Shown: positions 23,463 to 58,747 of the stretch, in pieces | Layout of the letters: each line of letters starts with the position of its first letter | How positions within the stretch are numbered: position 1 is the first letter of the stretch | Assembly (NCBI GenBank): GCA_029884335.1 | Contig: JAOUIA010000011.1 | Coordinates: forward strand, 1 to 64,000 | Length of the DNA stretch: 64,000 nt | Reading direction: 5' to 3' | Source: Betaproteobacteria bacterium | GTDB taxonomy: Bacteria > Pseudomonadota > Gammaproteobacteria > Burkholderiales > Casimicrobiaceae | Notes under the pieces: model-generated | What the model saw: the letters and a program-made list of their open reading frames with translations, nothing else | What the model was told of the DNA's origin: nothing | Database searches by the model: none | Translations under genes and position numbers: made by a program

Positions 23463-24032
23463 ATGGGCGCGAAGCCAGGCGAGCGCAGGGTCCAGATCCT
23501 GCGCACACTCGCGACGATGCTCGAGAGCCCGCGCGGCGAGAAGATCACGACCGCCGCGCTCGCGGCGCGCCTCGACGTCTCCGAGGCGGCGCTCTATCGC
23601 CACTTCGCCAGCAAGGCGCAGATGTACGAGGGGCTGATCGAGTTCATCGAGACCACGGTCTTCTCGCTGGTCAACAAGATCCAGGCCGAGGGCACCGACG
23701 GCGCGGCGCAGGCCGAGCAGATCGTCGCGATGCTGCTCGGCTTCGCCGAGCGCAACCCCGGCATGACGCGGGTGCTGATCGGCGACGCGCTGGTCAACGA
23801 GGACGAGCGCCTGCAGGCGCGCATGAACCAGCTCTACGACAAGCTGGAGGCGAGCCTGCGCCAGTCGATCCGCGTGGCGCAGATGGCCAACGGCTGGCGC
23901 GGCGACGCGAACGCCGACGCCGCGGTGCTGTTCGCGTTCGTCATGGGCCGCTGGCAGCTCTACGCCAAGTCCGGCTTCAAGCGCCTGCCGCAGGACGGCT
24001 GGGACCTGGCGCGCAAGTTCCTGTTTGCGTGA
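23463..24032 (+). CDS. slmA: Nucleoid occlusion factor SlmA (TetR family)
   Basis: A DNA-binding protein that blocks FtsZ assembly over the nucleoid. The 189-residue product has the TetR helix-turn-helix ITTAALAARLDVSEAALYRHFASKAQMYEGLIEF at about 25-60, followed by the SlmA ligand domain ending in WDLARKFLF. Alignment by eye to E. coli SlmA is good along the full length. It lies behind argB, its usual place in betaproteobacteria. Its stop overlaps the GTG of a secreted hypothetical protein. Confidence 0.93.
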   Translation: MGAKPGERRVQILRTLATMLESPRGEKITTAALAARLDVSEAALYRHFASKAQMYEGLIEFIETTVFSLVNKIQAEGTDGAAQAEQIVAMLLGFAERNPGMTRVLIGDALVNEDERLQARMNQLYDKLEASLRQSIRVAQMANGWRGDANADAAVLFAFVMGRWQLYAKSGFKRLPQDGWDLARKFLFA

Positions 24033-25009
24033 CGCACGTGGGCCGCATCGCGCGATTGCTGCTCTTCGCCGCCGTTGCGCCGTGGTGCGGCGAGGCGCTC
24101 GCGCAGGCGCGCGCCGGCGACGCGGACGCGGTCGCGCCCTCGCCGCACGCAGCGGCGTTCGCGCGCCTCGAGGAGGCGGTCGCGCAGAAGGTGGTCGGCG
24201 CCGACGACGCGCCGAGCCGCTACGTCTCCGGCCGGCTGTCCGGCTTCGACGTCGGCGCGCAGGCGCGCGACTACGCCGCGGCGCTCGCGCTCGCGCCGAA
24301 GGAGCCGCTGTACATGGCGAGCCTCGCCGACGCCTGCATGCGCCCCGCGTCGCCGCAGCCGGACCAGTGCGGCGGCCGCGATCCGGTGGCGTACTTCGCC
24401 TCGCGCGATGCCGACAACGCGGTGCCGTGGCTGCTGCAGGCGGAGCGCGCGCGGCGGCGCAACGCCGCGGGCGCGCTCGCCGACAACCTCGAGCGCGCCG
24501 CGCGCTCGTCGCGCTACGACGACTACGGCGGCCGGGCGGGGGCGATCTGGTGGACGGTGCTCTCTCGCGTGGCCGGCCCCGCCGACCGCGCGGCGGCGGC
24601 GCTCTACGCGATGACGGTGCCGTCGGGCAGCGGCACGCTGTCGGCGCTCGAGGCGGCCTGCGCGCCGACCACGCGACCGCTGGACGCGCGCATCGCGCCC
24701 GCCTGCGTTCGCCTCGGGGCGCTGATGGCGGAGCGCGCGACGTCGTTCGCCGACCGGCGGGCCGGAGCGCAGATCGCGCAGTCCGCCTCGCCGTCCGATT
24801 CCGGCCGCGCGCTCGCGCAGGCGAGCGCGCGCGAGGTCGTCGCGGCGCAGGAGCGCTGTCGCGACGCGCGCGTCGCGCTGGAGAGGCTCGCCGCGGGCGA
24901 CGCCGCTGCGCAGTCGCGCGCGGCATCCGCTGCCGAGCGCTTCCTCGTCGAGCGCGCGCGCGGCGGCGAGTCCGCGGCCTGCGACGCGCTCGCAGCAGCT
25001 CTCCGTTAG
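24029..25009 (+). CDS. Hypothetical secreted protein
   Basis: I do not recognise this 326-residue protein. It has an N-terminal signal peptide (hydrophobic core about 8-24, cleavage likely at ALA-Q). The mature part is Ala/Arg-rich and helical, with short repeats spaced like TPR or Sel1 units (AALALAPKEPLYMASLADACM, VPWLLQAERARRRN) and several cysteines that may form disulfides in the periplasm (CMRPASPQPDQC, ACAPTTRPLDARIAPAC). The GTG start overlaps the slmA stop by 4 bases. Its stop codon TAG lies on the left end of the MITE-like element. Confidence 0.7.
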   Translation: MTHVGRIARLLLFAAVAPWCGEALAQARAGDADAVAPSPHAAAFARLEEAVAQKVVGADDAPSRYVSGRLSGFDVGAQARDYAAALALAPKEPLYMASLADACMRPASPQPDQCGGRDPVAYFASRDADNAVPWLLQAERARRRNAAGALADNLERAARSSRYDDYGGRAGAIWWTVLSRVAGPADRAAAALYAMTVPSGSGTLSALEAACAPTTRPLDARIAPACVRLGALMAERATSFADRRAGAQIAQSASPSDSGRALAQASAREVVAAQERCRDARVALERLAAGDAAAQSRAASAAERFLVERARGGESAACDALAAALR

Positions 25010-25197
25010 TGTCCCGTACCGGAAGTTCCTTGCACAAGGACGAACGAGAAATGACGCGCTGCATTGTTGCCGGTCTTGCGGGTATTCGCGATACCCGCTG
25101 CGCCCGGCGTCGCGCAGCGCGCCATTTTCGTCGTCCTTGCGCGAGCGCAGGTGGTTGCTGCGCTGCGATGTGGCAAGGAACTTCCGGTACGGGACAC
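25009..25197. mobile_element. MITE-like element, copy 1 (about 189 bp)
   Basis: A non-coding element with perfect terminal inverted repeats of 25 bases beginning GTGTCCCGTACCGG, flanked on both sides by TA (25007-25008 and 25198-25199). A TA duplication is what IS630/Tc1-mariner-type transposition leaves. The middle holds a second palindrome, GCGGGTAT paired with ATACCCGC. The left TA plus the element's first G forms the TAG stop codon of the gene at 24029; the next gene starts 11 bases past the right TIR. A second copy lies at 51652-51841 in the same arrangement. The open frames inside it are not real genes. Confidence 0.8.
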
Positions 25198-25208
25198 TAG
25201 CCGCTCGC

Positions 25209-25688
25209 GTGGCTGCGCCCGACGGATCGCCGCTCGCCGGCGTCCACGCATTCCGCTTCGAGGTGACGAGCGCGTCGATCGACGGCAACGGCCACGTCAA
25301 CAACCTCGAGTACCTGCGCTGGATGCAGGAGGTGGCCATCGCGCACTCCGCGGCGGCCGGCTGGCCGATGGATCGCTACGCCGCCGAGGGCACGGCGTGG
25401 GTCGTGCGCAAGCACGCGATCGAGTACGTGCGCCCGGCGTTCGCCGGCGAGCGGCTCGTCGCGCTGACCTGGGTCGAGGGCTTCCGCGCGCACGTCTCGC
25501 CGCGCGGCTACCTGTTCTGGCGCGAGCGCGACCGCGCGGTCGTCGCGAAGGCGCAGACGCTGTGGGTCTACGTCGACGCCGCGACCGGGCGTCCGGCGAA
25601 GGTCCCCGCGGCGTTCCGGGAATGCTTCGACCTCGTGCGCGGCGAGGACGCGGTGCTGGACGCGCTTGCGGCCTGGAGTCCGGGCTAG
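25209..25688 (+). CDS. Acyl-CoA thioesterase, hotdog fold (4HBT)
   Basis: A 159-residue single hotdog-domain protein. The signature DGNGHVNNLEYLRWMQE (about 22-38) is the 4HBT pattern in which the Asn/His and the helix bind the acyl thioester. WVVRKHAIEYVRPAF and TLWVYVDAATGRP are the expected strands. It probably hydrolyses acyl-CoA or acyl-ACP in the cytoplasm; the chain length is not predictable. The GTG start at 25209 has no ordinary ribosome site; only GGGAC inside the MITE end stands 14 bases upstream. The gene is bracketed by the MITE and a REP-type repeat. Confidence 0.85.
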   Translation: MAAPDGSPLAGVHAFRFEVTSASIDGNGHVNNLEYLRWMQEVAIAHSAAAGWPMDRYAAEGTAWVVRKHAIEYVRPAFAGERLVALTWVEGFRAHVSPRGYLFWRERDRAVVAKAQTLWVYVDAATGRPAKVPAAFRECFDLVRGEDAVLDALAAWSPG

Positions 25689-25838
25689 TTGTGAAGTTTC
25701 AGGACGTTGTTTCCGCCCGGCAGGATCTGTCCGCATGAGCGAATCGTCGTCCCCGCGAAGGCGGGGACCCAGCGTCTCGTACGCTCGCAGGTCGCCCTGA
25801 ATGGACGTCACTGGGTCCCCGCCTTCGCGGGGACGACG
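25689..25838. repeat. Composite REP-type inverted repeat, copy 1
   Basis: Arms of 28 bases (25745-25772 and 25811-25838) are perfect reverse complements, beginning CGTCGTCCCCGCG, around a 38-base loop. The stretch before them, starting at the thioesterase stop codon (TTGTGAAGTTTCAGG), is matched in the other orientation next to copy 2. The element would give a very stable RNA hairpin between the thioesterase and the convergent moeB and may end transcription from both sides. Confidence 0.8.
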
Positions 25839-25915
25839 ATGTGTTGTGCCCGTGCCGGTACGTTGCGTTCGTTGCAGGTCGACGTACTACGCCGCGGGGA
25901 GCCCGCCGCAGCGAC

Positions 25916-26680
25916 TCACGCCGGCGCGCCGGGCCGATGCGCGCAGACGGGGCACTGCGGGTCGCGCGGCACGCGCAGTTCGCGCCACTGCGACGACAGC
26001 GCGTCGAACACGAGGAGCCGCCCGGCGAGCGTGCGCCCGGTCCCCGCGATCAGCTTGAGCGCCTCCGCCGCCTGCATGGCGCCGACCACGCCCACCAGCG
26101 GCGCGAACACGCCCATCGTCGCGCAGCGCGTCTCCGCGAGTTCCTCGCCTTCGCCGAACAGGCAGTGGTAGCAAGGCGCGGCGGGGTCGCGCGTGTCGAA
26201 CACGGCGACCTGGCCGTCGAAGCGGACCGCGGCGCCCGACACCAGCGGCTTCGCGGCGGCGACGCACGCGCGATTGATGGCGTGGCGCGTGGAGAAGTTG
26301 TCGGTGCAGTCGAGCACGACGTCGGCTGCGGCCGCGAGAGCGCCCAGCTCGTCCGCGCCCACGCGCCGGCGCAGCGGGACGATGCGTATCGTCGGATTGA
26401 CGGCCGCAAGGCGCCGCGCGGCAGCCTCGACCTTCGGGACCCCGACGTCGGCCAGCGCGAAGAGCAGCTGGCGCTGGAGGTTCGTGAGGTCGACTTCGTC
26501 GTCGTCGACCAGCGTCAGCGTGCCCACGCCCGCGCTGGCGAGGAACTGCGCCGCCGGATTCCCCAGCCCTCCGGCGCCGACGACCAGCGCGTGCGCGGCG
26601 GCGAATCGCTCCTGCGCATCCGTTCCCAGCTCGTCGAGAAGCAGGTGGCGGCTGTAGCGGAGGAGGTGCGAGTCGTCCAT
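25916..26680 (-). CDS. moeB: MoeB/ThiF/HesA-type adenylyltransferase
   Basis: An E1-like enzyme that adenylates the C-terminal glycine of a sulfur-carrier protein such as MoaD or ThiS. The 254-residue product begins MDDSHLLRYSRHLLL like E. coli MoeB (249). It has the ATP loop GAGGLGNP (35-42), DDDEVDLTNLQRQ, DCTDNFSTRHAIN, a catalytic cysteine in ETRCATMG, and two zinc-binding CxxC pairs (CYHC, CPVC). No MoaD, ThiS or other molybdopterin gene is nearby, so which carrier it serves is open. The ATG at 26680 fits the family; 26704 is an alternative. Confidence 0.88.
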   Translation of the reverse strand: MDDSHLLRYSRHLLLDELGTDAQERFAAAHALVVGAGGLGNPAAQFLASAGVGTLTLVDDDEVDLTNLQRQLLFALADVGVPKVEAAARRLAAVNPTIRIVPLRRRVGADELGALAAAADVVLDCTDNFSTRHAINRACVAAAKPLVSGAAVRFDGQVAVFDTRDPAAPCYHCLFGEGEELAETRCATMGVFAPLVGVVGAMQAAEALKLIAGTGRTLAGRLLVFDALSSQWRELRVPRDPQCPVCAHRPGAPA

Positions 26681-31828: not shown

Positions 31829-33772
31829 ATGAAGCGCTTCCCGACGTCTCCGTGGCTTGGCGTCCTCGTCGCCGCCATGTCAGCCGCATGCGCCGTCCCT
31901 TCAGCGTTCGCGAGCGACGCGGGCGACCTCGACAAGGAAAAGGCCGCGAAGGTCCACGCCGCGAAGCCGGCCTATTCACCCTACGCCGGTCGCACGTACC
32001 CGGTGCGGCCCTACTTCGGCGACACCCACCTGCACACCGGTTTCTCCATGGACGCGGGCGCGTTCGGCGCGCGCCTGACGCCGAAGGACGCCTACCGCTT
32101 CGCCCGCGGCGAGGAGGTGACCTCCAACTCGGGGCAGCCGGTGAAGCTCTCGCGCCCGCTCGACTTCCTCGTGGTGGCCGATCACTCCGACGGCATGGGC
32201 TTCTTCCCGCAGCTCATGGGCGGCGACGCCGAGTTGCTCGCCACCCCGCAGGGTCGCAAGTGGTACGAAGAGATCCGCGGCGGCAAAGGCGCTGAAGCGG
32301 CGATGGACATCATCGTCAGCTTCGGCAAGGGCCAGATGCCCAAGGGGTTTCCCGTTCCTGGCACCACGTCCTACCGAAATGCCTGGCAGGAGACGATCAA
32401 GGCAGCGGAGGCGTACAACGATCCGGGGCGCTTCACCGCGTTCATCGGCTACGAGTGGACCTCGAACACCGGCGGCAACAACCTGCACCGCAACGTGATC
32501 TTCCGCGGCAACGGCGCGCAGGCTTCGCTCGTCGAGCCGTTCACGACGATGCCGCCGCTGGGCAGCGACAACCCCGTGGACCTGTGGAAGTGGATGGCGG
32601 CCACCGAGCAGAAGACCGGCAGCGAGGTGCTCGCCATCGCCCACAACGGCAACGTCTCCAACGGCCGCATGTTCCCGGTCGTCGAGGCGTTCGGCAAGCC
32701 GGTGGACCGCGACTACGCCCGCACGCGCGCGCGCTGGGAGCCGCTCTACGAGGTGACGCAGACCAAGGGCACGGGCGAGGCGCATCCTTTCCTCTCGCCC
32801 AACGACGAGTTCGCGAACTTCGAGCTGTGGGACAAGGGGAACCTCGACGGGACCGTGGCGAAGACGAACGACATGCTCGAGTTCGAGTACGCCCGCGCGG
32901 CCTACCGCAATGGCCTTTCGCTCGAGGCGAAGCTCGGGACGAACCCGTTCAAGTTCGGCCTGATCGGCAGCAGCGACGCGCACACGGGACTCGCCGCGAT
33001 GGAGGAGGACAACTTCTTCGGCAAGACCGCGCCGCAGGAGCCCAGCCCGGAACGGCTGACGGCGACGTTCGTGAACAACGCGAAGACCGGCGTGCGGATC
33101 ATGGACTGGGAGGTGGGCGCCGCGGGATACGCGGCGGTGTGGGCGACGGAGAACACGCGCGAGGCGATCTTCGACGCGATGAAGCGCCGCGAGACGTATG
33201 CGACGACCGGCTCGCGGATGGTCGTGCGCTTCTTCGGCGGCTACGACTTCGTGGGCGCCGACGCCGGCAACCGCATGCCGGCCTCCGTGGGCTACTCGAA
33301 GGGCGTGCCGATGGGCGGCGAGCTGCCCGCCGCGGCGAACGGCAAGGCGCCGACGTTCCTCGTCGCGGCGCTCAAGGACCCGATCGGCGCGAACCTCGAC
33401 CGCATCCAGGTGATCAAGGGCTGGACGACCGCGGACGGCAAGACGCAGGAGCGCGTCTACGACGTCGCGGTGTCGGGCGGCAGGAAGATCGACGCCGACG
33501 GCCGCAGCCGGACGCCGGTCGGCAGCACGGTGGACGTCGCCAACGCGACCTACACGAACACGATCGGCTCGCCCGAGCTGATCGCGGTCTGGAAGGACCC
33601 CGCGTTCGACCCGAAGCAGCGCGCGTTCTACTACGTGCGAGTGCTGGAGATCCCGACGCCGCGCTGGACCGCCTACGACGCGAAGCGCTTCGGCAACAAG
33701 CCGCTGCCGGGCACGTCGATGACGCTGCAGGAGCGCGCCTACACCTCGCCGATCTGGTACACGCCGGGCTAG
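31829..33772 (+). CDS. DUF3604 domain-containing exported PHP-like metallohydrolase
   Basis: A 647-residue exported protein with a signal peptide of about 28 residues. It has the metal-binding motifs of the PHP-type fold that DUF3604 resembles: GDTHLHTG (Asp65, His67, His69), VVADHSD (Asp118, His119), AIAHNGN (His272) and SSDAHTG (Asp383, His385). These would hold two or three divalent metals for hydrolysis, perhaps of a phosphoester, in the periplasm. The substrate is unknown. GAGAGGAG gives a strong ribosome site for the ATG at 31829. A REP-type hairpin begins at its stop codon, and the HupE/PpiC operon converges from the other side. Confidence 0.88.
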   Translation: MKRFPTSPWLGVLVAAMSAACAVPSAFASDAGDLDKEKAAKVHAAKPAYSPYAGRTYPVRPYFGDTHLHTGFSMDAGAFGARLTPKDAYRFARGEEVTSNSGQPVKLSRPLDFLVVADHSDGMGFFPQLMGGDAELLATPQGRKWYEEIRGGKGAEAAMDIIVSFGKGQMPKGFPVPGTTSYRNAWQETIKAAEAYNDPGRFTAFIGYEWTSNTGGNNLHRNVIFRGNGAQASLVEPFTTMPPLGSDNPVDLWKWMAATEQKTGSEVLAIAHNGNVSNGRMFPVVEAFGKPVDRDYARTRARWEPLYEVTQTKGTGEAHPFLSPNDEFANFELWDKGNLDGTVAKTNDMLEFEYARAAYRNGLSLEAKLGTNPFKFGLIGSSDAHTGLAAMEEDNFFGKTAPQEPSPERLTATFVNNAKTGVRIMDWEVGAAGYAAVWATENTREAIFDAMKRRETYATTGSRMVVRFFGGYDFVGADAGNRMPASVGYSKGVPMGGELPAAANGKAPTFLVAALKDPIGANLDRIQVIKGWTTADGKTQERVYDVAVSGGRKIDADGRSRTPVGSTVDVANATYTNTIGSPELIAVWKDPAFDPKQRAFYYVRVLEIPTPRWTAYDAKRFGNKPLPGTSMTLQERAYTSPIWYTPG

Positions 33773-33999
33773 GCGTCATCTGTCAAGACGTTGTTGCTGC
33801 AAGGCATGCGCTGCTCGCATCCATGAGTCGTCGTCCCCGCGAAGGCGGGGACCCAGCGTCTCGCCGCTTCGACAAGCTGGCTGGCACGAAAGACACTGGG
33901 TCCCCGCCCCCCGACTGCAGTCCTCGGGGGCAGGCTTCGCGGGGACGACGCATGAACTGAATTCATGGATCGGCGAAACATCGCATTGAAATTTCACAG
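33773..33999. repeat. Composite REP-type inverted repeat, copy 2, with nested hairpin
   Basis: The left arm 33829-33856 is identical to that of copy 1. The right arm is split: its two halves (from about 33895 and ending near 33950) are separated by about 26 bases that are themselves palindromic (CCCCCGA...TCGGGGG). The outer right flank, read on the minus strand from the stop codon at 34000, starts CTGTGAAATTTCAAT and parallels the sequence that follows the thioesterase stop in copy 1. The element lies between convergent genes. Confidence 0.75.
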
Positions 34000-51175: not shown

Positions 51176-51652
51176 ATGCGGCAGGCGCTCGCGCGCTGCA
51201 CGCGCCTCGCCGCTGTGGCGTTCGCGCTGACCGCGACTGTGGCGACGGGCGCGGAGTACCGCGTCACCGCCGAGCAGCCGACGGTCCTCTACGACGGGCC
51301 GTCGACGAAGTCGAATCCGCAGTTCCTCTACGGCCGCGACGTGCCGGTCGAGGTGATCGTCAGCGTCGAGGGCTGGGCGAAGGTGCGCGACGCCGGCGGC
51401 ACGATCGGCTGGATCGAGCGCAAGGCGCTCGCCGAGCGGCGGATGCTGATGGTGCGCGTCCCGCTCGCGGAGGTGCGTGAGCGCGCCGACGACGCCGCAC
51501 CGGTCGCCTTCCGCGCGGAGCAGAACGTACTGCTCGAGCTGGCCGAGCCGGCGACCTCCGCGGCGACGGCGACGAATCCCGGCTGGCTCAAGGTGCGCCA
51601 CCGCGACGGCGCGAGCGGCTTCGTGCGCATCGCGCAGGTCTTCGGGCTCTAG
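51176..51652 (+). CDS. Exported SH3-domain protein
   Basis: A 158-residue protein with signal peptide 1-25 (ATGAE). Two SH3b-like beta modules follow: YRVTAEQPTVLYDGPSTKSNPQFLYGRDVPVEVIVSVEGWAKVRDAGG, and a second half with GWLKVRHRDGASGFVRIAQVFG. Bacterial SH3 proteins of this kind are periplasmic and thought to bind cell-wall material. It begins 7 bases after secB and precedes gpsA, a conserved order in Burkholderiales. Its TAG stop is formed at the left edge of the second MITE-like element. Confidence 0.88.
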   Translation: MRQALARCTRLAAVAFALTATVATGAEYRVTAEQPTVLYDGPSTKSNPQFLYGRDVPVEVIVSVEGWAKVRDAGGTIGWIERKALAERRMLMVRVPLAEVRERADDAAPVAFRAEQNVLLELAEPATSAATATNPGWLKVRHRDGASGFVRIAQVFGL

Positions 51653-51841
51653 CGTCCCGCACCGGAAGTTCCTTTGCACAAGGACGGGCGAGAAGTGACG
51701 CGCTGCATTGTTGCCGGCCTTGCGGGTATTGGCGATACCCGCTGCGACCGGCGTCGCGCAGCGCGCCATTTTCGTCGTCCTTGTTCGGGCGGCGGTGGTT
51801 GCTGCGCTGCGACAAGGCAAGGAACCTCCGGTACGGGACGC
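51652..51841. mobile_element. MITE-like element, copy 2 (about 190 bp)
   Basis: Matches copy 1 along its whole length, with roughly nine in ten positions identical by eye. The terminal inverted repeats start GCGTCCCG and have two internal mismatches plus one extra T. The left flank is TA and the right flank TT, so the target duplication is decayed or imperfect. As in copy 1, TA plus the first G makes the stop codon of the upstream gene (SH3 protein), and the next start codon (gpsA) follows 11 bases after the right end. Confidence 0.8.
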
Positions 51842-51852
51842 TTGCAATTCCC

Positions 51853-52851
51853 GTGAAGGTCGGCATCGCCGGCGCGGGCGCCTGGGGAACCGCGCTGGCG
51901 GTGCACCTCGTCGCGCGCGCCGCGGTCACGCCGCGCGTCGCGCTGTGGGCGCGCGACGGAGGCCGGGCAGCCGAGATCGACGTGGCGCGCGAAAACGCGC
52001 GCTACCTGCCGGGGATTGCGCTGCCGGCCGCGCTCGAGGTGACTGCCGACATGTCCCCGCTCGTTGCGGCCGACCTCGTGATCGTCGCGACGCCGATGGC
52101 CGCGCTGGTCGCGACGGTGCAGCGCCTCGCCTCCGCCGGCGTGCGCACTCCGCTCGTGTGGCTGTCGAAGGGCTTCGTGGCCGATGAGGACGGGGTTGCG
52201 CTTGCGCACCAACGCATCGCGCCGCGCTGGAGCGAGGCGGTCGGCGTGGTGTCGGGGCCGAGCTTCGCCGAGGAGGTCGCCCGCGGCCTGCCCACCGCGC
52301 TCACCGTCGCGGCAACGGCGCCCGCGCTCGCCGCCGACGTCGCGGCGCTGCTGCGCGGCGACACGCTGCGTGCCTACGAGAGCGACGACATTGCCGGCGT
52401 CGAGACCGGCGGCGCGGTCAAGAACGTGCTGGCGATCGCTGCCGGCGCGAGCGACGCGCTGGGCTTCGGCCACAACGCGCGCGCGGCGCTGATCACGCGC
52501 GGGCTCGCCGAGACCGGGCGGCTCGCGGCCGCGCTGGGCGGCCGCCGCGAGACGCTGATGGGGCTGGCCGGCCTGGGAGACCTCGTGCTCACCTGCACGG
52601 GCGACCTGTCGCGCAACCGGCGCGTCGGCATGGCGCTCGCGAAGGGGGAGGCGCTGCCGCAGATCCTCGCCGACCTCGGCCACGTGGCCGAGGGCGTGGG
52701 CGCCGCGCGCGCGGTGCGGCGGCTCGCCGAGCAGCACGGCGTCGACATGCCTATCTGCGAGGCCGTCGACCGCGCGCTGCACGAGGGCCTGCCGGTGCGC
52801 GACGCAGTGGCCGAACTGCTGCGGCGCGAGCCGCGTCCGGAGGTGCACTGA
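51853..52851 (+). CDS. gpsA: NAD(P)-dependent glycerol-3-phosphate dehydrogenase
   Basis: Reduces dihydroxyacetone phosphate to sn-glycerol 3-phosphate for phospholipid synthesis. The 332-residue product has the dinucleotide loop GAGAWGTALA (7-16), VSGPSFAEEVARGLPTA, the catalytic lysine in GGAVKNVLAIAAG, and GLAGLGDLVLTC. The GTG at 51853 gives the exact family N-terminus (VKVGIAGAGAWG). No ordinary ribosome site precedes it, because the MITE ends 11 bases upstream; GGGAC in the element's end is the only candidate. The MITE may therefore affect its expression. Confidence 0.95.
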   Translation: MKVGIAGAGAWGTALAVHLVARAAVTPRVALWARDGGRAAEIDVARENARYLPGIALPAALEVTADMSPLVAADLVIVATPMAALVATVQRLASAGVRTPLVWLSKGFVADEDGVALAHQRIAPRWSEAVGVVSGPSFAEEVARGLPTALTVAATAPALAADVAALLRGDTLRAYESDDIAGVETGGAVKNVLAIAAGASDALGFGHNARAALITRGLAETGRLAAALGGRRETLMGLAGLGDLVLTCTGDLSRNRRVGMALAKGEALPQILADLGHVAEGVGAARAVRRLAEQHGVDMPICEAVDRALHEGLPVRDAVAELLRREPRPEVH

Positions 52852-52855
52852 GGCA

Positions 52856-52994
52856 AAATGAGGGCCAGAGTGGAGTTTCCGCTGCGGCCGTCGGGTCTTG
52901 CCGGGCGCCTCCCCGGAAACTCCACTCTGACCCTCACTTCCCCTGAGCTTCACTTTCCCATCGCCGGAAATTCGACTCTGACCCTCATTTCCCC
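52856..52994. repeat. REP-like repeat cluster behind gpsA (one inverted pair plus a direct copy)
   Basis: Three related units of about 26-30 bases: 52856-52881 on the minus strand, 52914-52943 and 52965-52994 on the plus strand. The shared core reads ACTCTGACCCTCA on the plus-strand copies. The first two form a long hairpin of about 20 paired bases. Similar units accompany REP-associated tyrosine transposases (RAYTs) in other proteobacteria, but no such gene is in the window. The hairpin may terminate the secB-gpsA transcript. Confidence 0.7.
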
Positions 52995-57586: not shown

Positions 57587-58371
57587 CGTCGGCGCAACCC
57601 GCGGCGCTGCACGTCGAGTCGGCCGGCCGCGGCCGTCCGCTCGTGCTGCTGCACGGCTGGGCGCTGCACGCGGGGCTGTTCACGCCGCTCATGCCGGCGC
57701 TCGCGCAGCGTCACCGCGTGCTGGCGGCGGACTTGCCGGGGCACGGCCACAGCCCGCCGCTGCCGCGCTGGTCCCTCGCCACGGTCGTCGCGGCGCTTGC
57801 CGACGCCTTCGGCGGCGAAGCCGAACCGCCCGACGTGCTCGGCTGGTCGCTCGGGGGGCTGATCGCGCTCGCGTGGGCGCGCGCGCACCCGGCGCAGGTG
57901 CGCCGGCTGGTCCTGGTCGGCGCGACGCCGAAATTCGTCGCCGGCGACGACTGGCCGCACGCGATGGGCGAGACGGCGATGCACCGCTTCGCCGACGAGC
58001 TTCGCGTGGCCTACCGTCCGACGCTGCAGCGCTTCCTCACGCTGCAGGTGCAGGGGAGCGCGGAGGGCCGCGCCACGCTGGCGGCGCTGCGTCACGCGCT
58101 GCACGCGCGCGATGCGCCCGACCCGTCGACGCTGTCCGACGCGCTCGCGGTGCTGGCGGAGACCGACGTCCGCTCGCTCGTCGCGTCGATCCGCCACCCC
58201 GCGCTGGCGATTGCCGGCGAGCGCGACACGCTCGTGCCGCCGCTGGCCACGGCGTGGCTCGCGCGCGCGCTGCCCGACGCGCGCCTCAAGGTGATCACGG
58301 GAGCGGGGCACGCGCCGTTCCTCTCGCACCGCGAAGCGTTCCTCGACGCCGTCGACGAGTTCCTGGCATGA
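57583..58371 (+). CDS. bioH: Pimeloyl-ACP methyl ester carboxylesterase
   Basis: An alpha/beta hydrolase that removes the methyl ester that BioC put on, releasing pimeloyl-ACP for BioF. The 262-residue product has LLHGWALHAG (oxyanion loop), the nucleophile elbow GWSLGG with Ser89, the acid in AGERDTLVPP and the histidine in GAGHAPFLSH. It is coupled to bioF by a GTGA overlap. Its TGA stop is the first part of the 87-bp tandem repeat. Confidence 0.94.
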   Translation: MTSAQPAALHVESAGRGRPLVLLHGWALHAGLFTPLMPALAQRHRVLAADLPGHGHSPPLPRWSLATVVAALADAFGGEAEPPDVLGWSLGGLIALAWARAHPAQVRRLVLVGATPKFVAGDDWPHAMGETAMHRFADELRVAYRPTLQRFLTLQVQGSAEGRATLAALRHALHARDAPDPSTLSDALAVLAETDVRSLVASIRHPALAIAGERDTLVPPLATAWLARALPDARLKVITGAGHAPFLSHREAFLDAVDEFLA

Positions 58372-58580
58372 GCGCCGCAGGGCCGTCCCAAGGCGCTCAT
58401 TGCGCCCCCTTCGGGGGCAGCGCAGCTGCGCCAGCAGCAAGCGTGGGGGTCGTCAGGAGCGCCGCAGGGCCGTCCCAAGGCGCTCATTGCGCCCCCTTCG
58501 GGGGCAGCGCAGCTGCGCCAGCAGCAAGCGTGGGGGTCGTCAGGAGCGCCGCAGGGCCGTCCCAAGGCGCTCATTGCGCC
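58370..58580. repeat. 87-bp tandem repeat between bioH and bioC (2.4 copies)
   Basis: Units start at 58370, 58457 and 58544; the first two are apparently identical and the third stops after about 37 bases. Each full unit holds two palindromes, CCCCCTTCGGGGG and GCGCAGCTGCGC. The array starts within the bioH stop codon. A single diverged copy of the unit's second half lies at 58698-58745, just before bioC. Confidence 0.9.
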
Positions 58581-58747
58581 GGCCTCATTGAGCGGGCGCG
58601 GCTTGCATGGGTCTGCATGTCGGCCGGTGCGGCGATTCGCCTTGGCGTCGATCCCCACGCTGCGCGCGGGGCCCCTCGCCGCAGGGCGAACGCCACTCCC
58701 CCCAGGGGCAGCGCAGCTGCGCCGGCAGCAAGCGTGGGGGTCGTCCG
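58581..58747. other. Spacer between tandem repeat and bioC with a diverged repeat half
   Basis: Together with the repeat array this makes a gene-free stretch of 376 bases (58372-58747). Positions 58698-58745 repeat the second half of the 87-bp unit with a few changes, including GCGCAGCTGCGC and GCAAGCGTGGGGGTCGTC. GGGGGT in that copy is the only candidate ribosome site for the bioC GTG. Confidence 0.7.

Follow-up and report, generated by a model that had tools for sequence, protein, structure and literature searches.

A putative IS630-type MITE at TAG stop codons of a Casimicrobiaceae genome and its likely CTAG target

The 189-bp repeat that separates two genes in the window (the whole stretch of DNA analysed, positions 1 to 64,000 of contig JAOUIA010000011.1) is very probably a non-autonomous element (MITE) from the IS630 branch of Tc1/mariner, with TA inside CTAG as its target, and with the same high confidence we take its placement in stop codons to follow from the distribution of CTAG in the genome. 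About half of its intact copies in the own genome end exactly at a TAG stop, as would be expected if CTAG, and not the stop codon, is what is recognised.

Copies in the window and beyond

The window holds two copies of the MITE, and also places of a second repeat family. The junctions of copy 1 were read from the sequence as ...CTCCGT TA/GTGTCCCGTACCGGAAGTTCCTTGC...(189 bp)...GCAAGGAACTTCCGGTACGGGACAC/TAG CCGCTCGC GTG, where slashes mark the ends of the element. Gene positions come from a purpose-built gene caller and not from a published tool. The features are as follows.

24029..25009, + strand: upstream gene, 326 aa, no Pfam family (gene call, Pfam search)
25007..25008, + strand: left TA, bases 1-2 of the stop codon and left copy of the presumed target TA duplication
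25009..25197, + strand: MITE copy 1, probably IS630-type, 189 bp
25009..25033, + strand: left 25-bp terminal inverted repeat, GTGTCCCGTACCGGAAGTTCCTTGC
25173..25197, - strand: right 25-bp terminal inverted repeat, perfect complement of the left
25198..25199, + strand: right TA, presumed right-hand copy of the target duplication, with G behind it
25209..25688, + strand: thioesterase-like downstream gene, GTG start, Pfam 4HBT_2 (gene call, Pfam search)
25686 to about 25889, about 33770-33970, and L327-L356: second repeat family of about 200 bp; core REP-like, CGTCGTCCCCGCGAAGGCGGGGACCCAG, ends CTA/GNTGT-like
51176..51652, + strand: gene hit by copy 2, protein ending RIAQVFGL before the stop, same end in relatives
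51652..51841, + strand: MITE copy 2, 190 bp, in the TAG stop of gene 51176-51652
51853..52851, + strand: gpsA-like gene downstream of copy 2, GTG 11 bases past the MITE

The TAG stop of the upstream gene occupies 25007-25009, and its G is the first base of copy 1, which is palindromic and has perfect 25-bp terminal repeats. An initial annotation, made from the letters of the window, had described a MITE-like element of 189 bp that is inserted in a stop codon, starts with G directly after the TA and leaves the next start codon 11 bases from its right end; direct reading of the junctions bears this out in each respect (the 11 bases are 25198-25208, with the GTG at 25209). It had also held that the upstream gene keeps its length, and this agrees with the closest orthologue, in genome G015 (74% identical), which has no MITE behind it and ends ...ALADALR against ...DALAAALR in the own genome, i.e. 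at the same end residue, with TGA as its stop. Further relatives of this gene are just 33-39% identical, and their tails say little; for the downstream gene the genus offers only distant thioesterases (26-34% identical). A search of Rfam gave no family at the gathering score and two sub-gathering matches only, in 23500-26500, and a plasmid collection gave no match.

For copy 2, the gene downstream is taken to be gpsA-like from its sequence. Of 21 relative loci returned for the gene that was hit, 18 were examined, and in 17 of these the protein stops at the same place with ...[VI]FG[LF]; the stop is TGA, TAG or TAA, and the 45 bases behind the gene contain no MITE. At the 18th the gene was not found. 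Two other repeats of the window may be mentioned here. Right at the TGA that ends the gpsA-like gene is an imperfect 41-bp inverted repeat (52848-52947), which is matched in the rest of the genome by fragments of 32-35 bp only. At 58367-58744 there are four 87-nt repeats with a spacing of 87, 87 and 117, of which two are nearly identical and two 66% alike.

The own genome comprises 3.66 Mb in 120 contigs. A search of it and of relatives with the 189-bp element, proposed as a check in the initial annotation, brought up 24 copies in this genome, the full ones 90-98% identical to copy 1; the element is short and repeated, and it has no transposase gene. The similarity search scored the best 40 of 269 candidates and gave 59 match rows, from which rows matching one end of a palindrome to its other end, the further part of one copy that had been split, and a stub of 34 bp on contig C83 were left out; a scan for the end pattern arrived at an identical set, 19 copies with two ends and 5 with one. 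The 24 divide into 16 two-ended copies of near full length, 3 short two-ended copies, 4 cut by contig edges and 1 truncated. L017 measures 188 bp, and the bases of 14 copies differ from their consensus by about 3% per base. The short forms (L022, L023 and L024, 82-88 bp) keep both ends, with the inner hairpin absent. When 61 genomes were searched, the own one included, 7 had a match, and real elements beyond the own genome were found in G003, G015 and G019; the matches in G006, G025 and G038 (L034-L036) are 26-35 bp long and look like chance. G015 carries a divergent sister family of the same architecture. Over 30 copies from four genomes, each of a different species, 28 are 189 bp long, one 188 and one 190. 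At L042 in G015 a different palindrome (AGGGCCTGTCCACGCTA...TAGCGTGGACAGGCCCTAG) adjoins an IS630-type MITE at a CTAG.

Stop codons, CTAG sites and flanking bases

A TAG stop of a called gene lies exactly at an end in 11 of the 19 two-ended copies, on either strand (L001, L002, L005, L008, L009, L010, L013, L014, L016, L017 and L023), a count that excludes five one-ended or cut copies (L012 and L018-L021). None of the 24 copies is inside a called gene. It may be noted that the initial annotation had named two observations that would speak against it, most copies lying away from stops and the upstream genes ending differently in relatives free of the element. The first is not what the 11 of 19 show. 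In G003 and G015, 3 of the 4 copies of the same family are at a TAG stop as well, and at the fourth (L037) the end of the TAG precedes the MITE by one base. Ten more copies were measured, nine from the G015 sister family and one in G019; 4 are exactly at a stop and a fifth is one base off.

As to the second, the genes at stop copies include those which from their translations we take to be thyA, fadB-like, midA-like and nuoN-like genes and the gene before gpsA. The proteins of the first three run up to the stop with KAPVAV (thyA), GKPLRN (fadB-like) and HRL (midA-like), and relatives without the MITE have the same end residue in 4/4, 4/4 and 3/3 cases respectively. The nuoN-like protein is off by one residue, its orthologue in G015 being one residue shorter, and the orthologue in G009 differs more; the tails of a luxR-type gene and a hydratase gene vary among relatives and, together with the nuoN-like case, neither strongly support nor oppose the claim. 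Where tails are closely comparable, then, the MITE insertions have, to judge from these comparisons, left gene ends unchanged. The claim that insertion into TAA or TAG recreates TAG holds in so far as the stop is kept as TAG. Little was truly rebuilt, as the original third base of the stop, read from the far flank, is G in 10 of the 11 copies, whose stops were apparently TAG before, and A in one (L014). Only this one hit stop seems really to have changed, from TAA to TAG, going by its flanks.

The CTAG statistics were taken from 464 kb, i.e. the window plus 400 kb of sampled stretches of the own genome. In this sample CTAG is depleted five-fold (92 found against 476 expected from trinucleotides), and the 92 sites consist of 33 TAG stops, 41 intergenic and 18 coding sites. 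TAG stops therefore make up 33 of the 74 non-coding CTAG sites (about 45%), or 30/68 when the CTAGs at ends of both element families are left out. The stop share of the MITE (11/19) does not differ from 33/74 (binomial p 0.26), and it exceeds the 143 of 721 TA sites that are non-coding or in stops (p 0.0003). That about half of the copies are in stops is thus most likely explained by the rarity of CTAG in a GC-rich genome and by the large part of its non-coding CTAG sites that are TAG stops. In the same sample TAG accounts for 130 of 416 stops, and G precedes 84 of the 130.

The base before the stop points the same way. In the 11 hit stops it is C in 8, T in 2 and G in 1, against C in 33 and G in 84 of all 130 TAG stops (Fisher p 0.002 for C and 0.0004 for the G deficit), which indicates that CTAG is the target and not the stop. 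Among the non-stop copies, 15 of the 16 sides likewise have a C next to the TA position, on its outer side.

Flanks read C-TA-[G...C]-TA-G, often with one TA altered: of the 19 two-ended copies, 7 are flanked by TA left and right, and all 19 have it next to at least one end. At the non-CTAG targets L001 and L002 (TTAG) and L008 and L015 (CTAC) the inner G and C are kept at both ends, and at L014 (TTAG) the inner base fits at one end and is T instead of G at the other. The G and C therefore seem to be part of the element itself and the duplication to cover no more than the TA, a duplication at insertion that we infer from flanks in which mutation is possible. The TA is gone on 7 of 11 far sides of stop copies and on 5 of 16 sides of non-stop copies, and its loss on the far side is much more frequent than changes in MITE bases (about 3% per base); a general avoidance of CTAG in this genome may explain such quick decay. 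We also considered a donor TA carried on one flank with a target dinucleotide on the other, since 0/19 copies lack both TAs; under independent decay just about 2 such copies would be expected by our arithmetic, so that the idea does not follow from this count.

The second repeat family has no recognised similarity to the MITE and the same kind of ends, and in 12 of the 20 places examined (83 match rows) a gene stop falls at an end, the coincidence being judged partly by eye. A repeat that resembles the MITE in nothing recognised but its type of ends is thus placed in like manner. At L331, L338 and L348 the stops of two convergent genes lie at both ends. On pooling the two families of the own genome, 23 of 39 are at stops, which is slightly above the CTAG background (p 0.075); for either family alone the share shows no difference from it.

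IS630 relatives, fold and competing explanations

Genomes of several phyla contain the end pattern TAGTGTCCCGNNNCGGANGTT, in at least 111 stretches. Over 80 loci of these, C precedes 76 of 83 end matches; with one end tested per match, a called stop coincides with 17 of the 83, against 24 of 148 other non-coding CTAG sites, on either strand, at the same loci. One locus, L195, on a Sulfopaludibacter contig, is a 1.23-kb element that encodes a DDE_3 transposase (1.1e-17) between CTAG-TGTCCCGATTCGGAAGTT-type ends, DDE_3 being the Pfam domain of IS630. Its end GTGTCCCGATTCGGAAGTT and the MITE end GTGTCCCGTACCGGAAGTT are alike in 16 of 19 bases by eye, so that inverted repeats in common with a DDE_3-encoding element do exist, in an element from another genome. 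Of 64 genomes of the bacterial family, 13 carry loci with relatives of the L195 transposase. Ten of these loci were inspected, and all six elements with recognised ends, four in the genus (G007, G018, G011 and G014) and two in other genera of the family (G071 and G025), have the ends CTA/GTGT...ACAC/TAG; 3 of these 6 full-length IS630 elements, when measured, are at a TAG stop. A DDE_3 family was found in none of four genomes searched, the own included, and the own genome (G000; 95.6%, 120 contigs) has no match to the L195 transposase and no pair of MITE-type ends spaced more than 190 bp. An autonomous partner was thus not found there; it is not strictly required, and the assembly is incomplete, with 4 copies at contig edges.

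These observations would fit the following course of events. An IS630-type transposase, acting in trans, would excise the MITE and reinsert it at a TA with a strong preference for CTAG, and the TA would be duplicated to give C-TA-[G...C]-TA-G. Insertions in coding CTAG sites would be purged by selection, which would leave about half of the survivors in stops. Because both ends of the MITE begin with G, a stop that was hit would read TAG again and the protein would stay unchanged, while the second TA, on the far side, would be free of such constraint and would decay.

The spacer is strongly structured, as the initial annotation had supposed in speaking of roughly 190 bp. On the strand of copy 1 it folds at -134.6 kcal/mol, whereas shuffles average -76.3; this is about 12 sd lower, with 0 of 200 dinucleotide shuffles as good, and the fold is very stable on both strands (z -12 and -15). 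Between the MITE and the sister family, 16 of 56 consensus pairs have two-sided changes, the inner hairpin included; such covariation of inner pairs may reflect some function of the fold, or nothing more than common ancestry together with constraint by the transposase at the ends.

A reading in which the MITE seeks stop codons as such, or in which its CTAG choice and terminal G evolved for harmless landing, appears to us highly improbable. It would account for the stops hit in 11/19 copies of the own genome, in 3/4 of G003 and G015 and in 12/20 of the second family, and for the pooled 23/39 that is a little above background; yet TAG stops preceded by G, the majority at 84/130, are hit in 1 case of 11 while C precedes 8, non-stop copies carry the same outer C on 15/16 sides, and neither family alone departs from the CTAG background. 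We give equally little credence to another chemistry, i.e. a duplication of 4-6 bp including CTAG as in IS481- or IS5-like elements, or single-strand insertion behind a tetranucleotide as in REP/RAYT systems. Several copies do have CTAG at both ends, and CTAG or YTAA is the 4-nt target given for MITEPsy1 in passages of PMC3189936, as NCTAGN is for the IS481-type TnRErm46 in those of PMC6794481. But the TTAG and CTAC targets keep the inner G and C in 4 of 5 cases, L014 being the exception with a single T, and a 2-bp duplication agrees better with this; the transposases found with similar ends are IS630 proteins. A 4- or 6-bp repeat of the IS481 or IS5 type was not found either, and the flanks of L001, L002, L008 and L015 would need mutation to yield one; REP or REPIN elements moved by RAYT are disfavoured by the perfect 25-bp terminal repeats.

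It is unlikely, if less so than the two readings above, that the structured spacer is retained for a role in operons, as an RNase III site, an attenuator or an mRNA stabiliser behind the upstream gene. The very stable fold of both strands, the near-constant length (28/30 copies from four species) and the two-sided changes would suit such a role, and similar functions are reported for other bacterial MITEs in parts of PMC2229807 and PMC3049150. On the other side, the transposase by itself would lead one to expect covariation of terminal-repeat pairs, copies also occur between convergent and between divergent genes, the short forms do without the inner hairpin, and 24900-25400 has no promoter-like site and one terminator-like match (0.3 expected). 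An operon role is compatible with the account of an IS630-type MITE as to how the element arrived. Of the initial idea of a built-in way to enter operons without a frame break, what stands is that reading frames and lengths are kept in comparable genes. A dedicated stop or operon device is not supported: eight of the 19 copies lie away from stops, stops are hit about as often as their part in the non-coding CTAG sites would lead one to expect, and the preceding base shows a CTAG target. Full-length IS630 elements of the bacterial family are found at stops too, and entry into operons is merely one outcome, as four of the stop copies (L005, L008, L013 and L023) are between convergent genes.

Known elements and meaning

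Passages of PMC2170065 on ISY100 describe insertion at TA with duplication of the TA, and Tenzen and Ohtsubo 1991, cited there, names in its title the preference of IS630 for a TA within 5'-CTAG-3'. The IS630 family (IS630 of Shigella sonnei, ISY100), as far as these sources describe it, resembles the MITE in its TA target, its CTAG preference and end sequences common with DDE_3 elements; the MITE differs in being 189 bp long, without a transposase gene and without a partner found in its own genome. RUP, Correia/NEMIS and ERIC, which we liken to it by description (PMC2229807), are also 100-200 bp long with terminal repeats, TA ends and a strong fold, and mostly intergenic; RUP is thought to be mobilised by IS630-Spn1, and placement in stop codons is absent from the account of these elements in that source. 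TnRErm46 of Rhodococcus equi, as described in parts of PMC6794481, shares the CTAG target, and the TAG is the stop of some of its target genes, which are left uninterrupted; it differs in its transposase family (IS481-type), its 6-bp NCTAGN repeat and in being a 6.9-kb transposon that carries genes. MITEPsy1 of Pseudomonas syringae is likewise a MITE that inserts at CTAG or YTAA, and differs, in the passages of PMC3189936, by IS5-like ends, a 4-bp duplication, a length of 100 bp and 2 of 6 copies that interrupt loci. CTAG targeting by IS630 and a CTAG element that spares stops (the IS481-type TnRErm46) are therefore already published, and the MITE is not a new type of system. In the open-licence literature, covered by titles or passages, no paper was found on IS630-type MITEs in stop codons.

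It is doubtful, though somewhat less remote than stop seeking, that the terminal G and the choice of CTAG are together an adaptation of the IS630 group that makes TAG (and TAA) stops safe landing sites. If this were true, MITEs and full elements could colonise the 3' ends of essential genes and split convergent pairs that share one CTAG. The account by CTAG distribution offers a simple quantitative reason for transposons lying exactly in stops: a word that the host avoids inside genes persists mainly at gene ends, and element ends that supply the missing base leave the protein intact. Tetranucleotide statistics of a genome could then serve to predict its insertion maps, and for annotators an odd spacer of 190 bases, or a gene start within one, may be a MITE.
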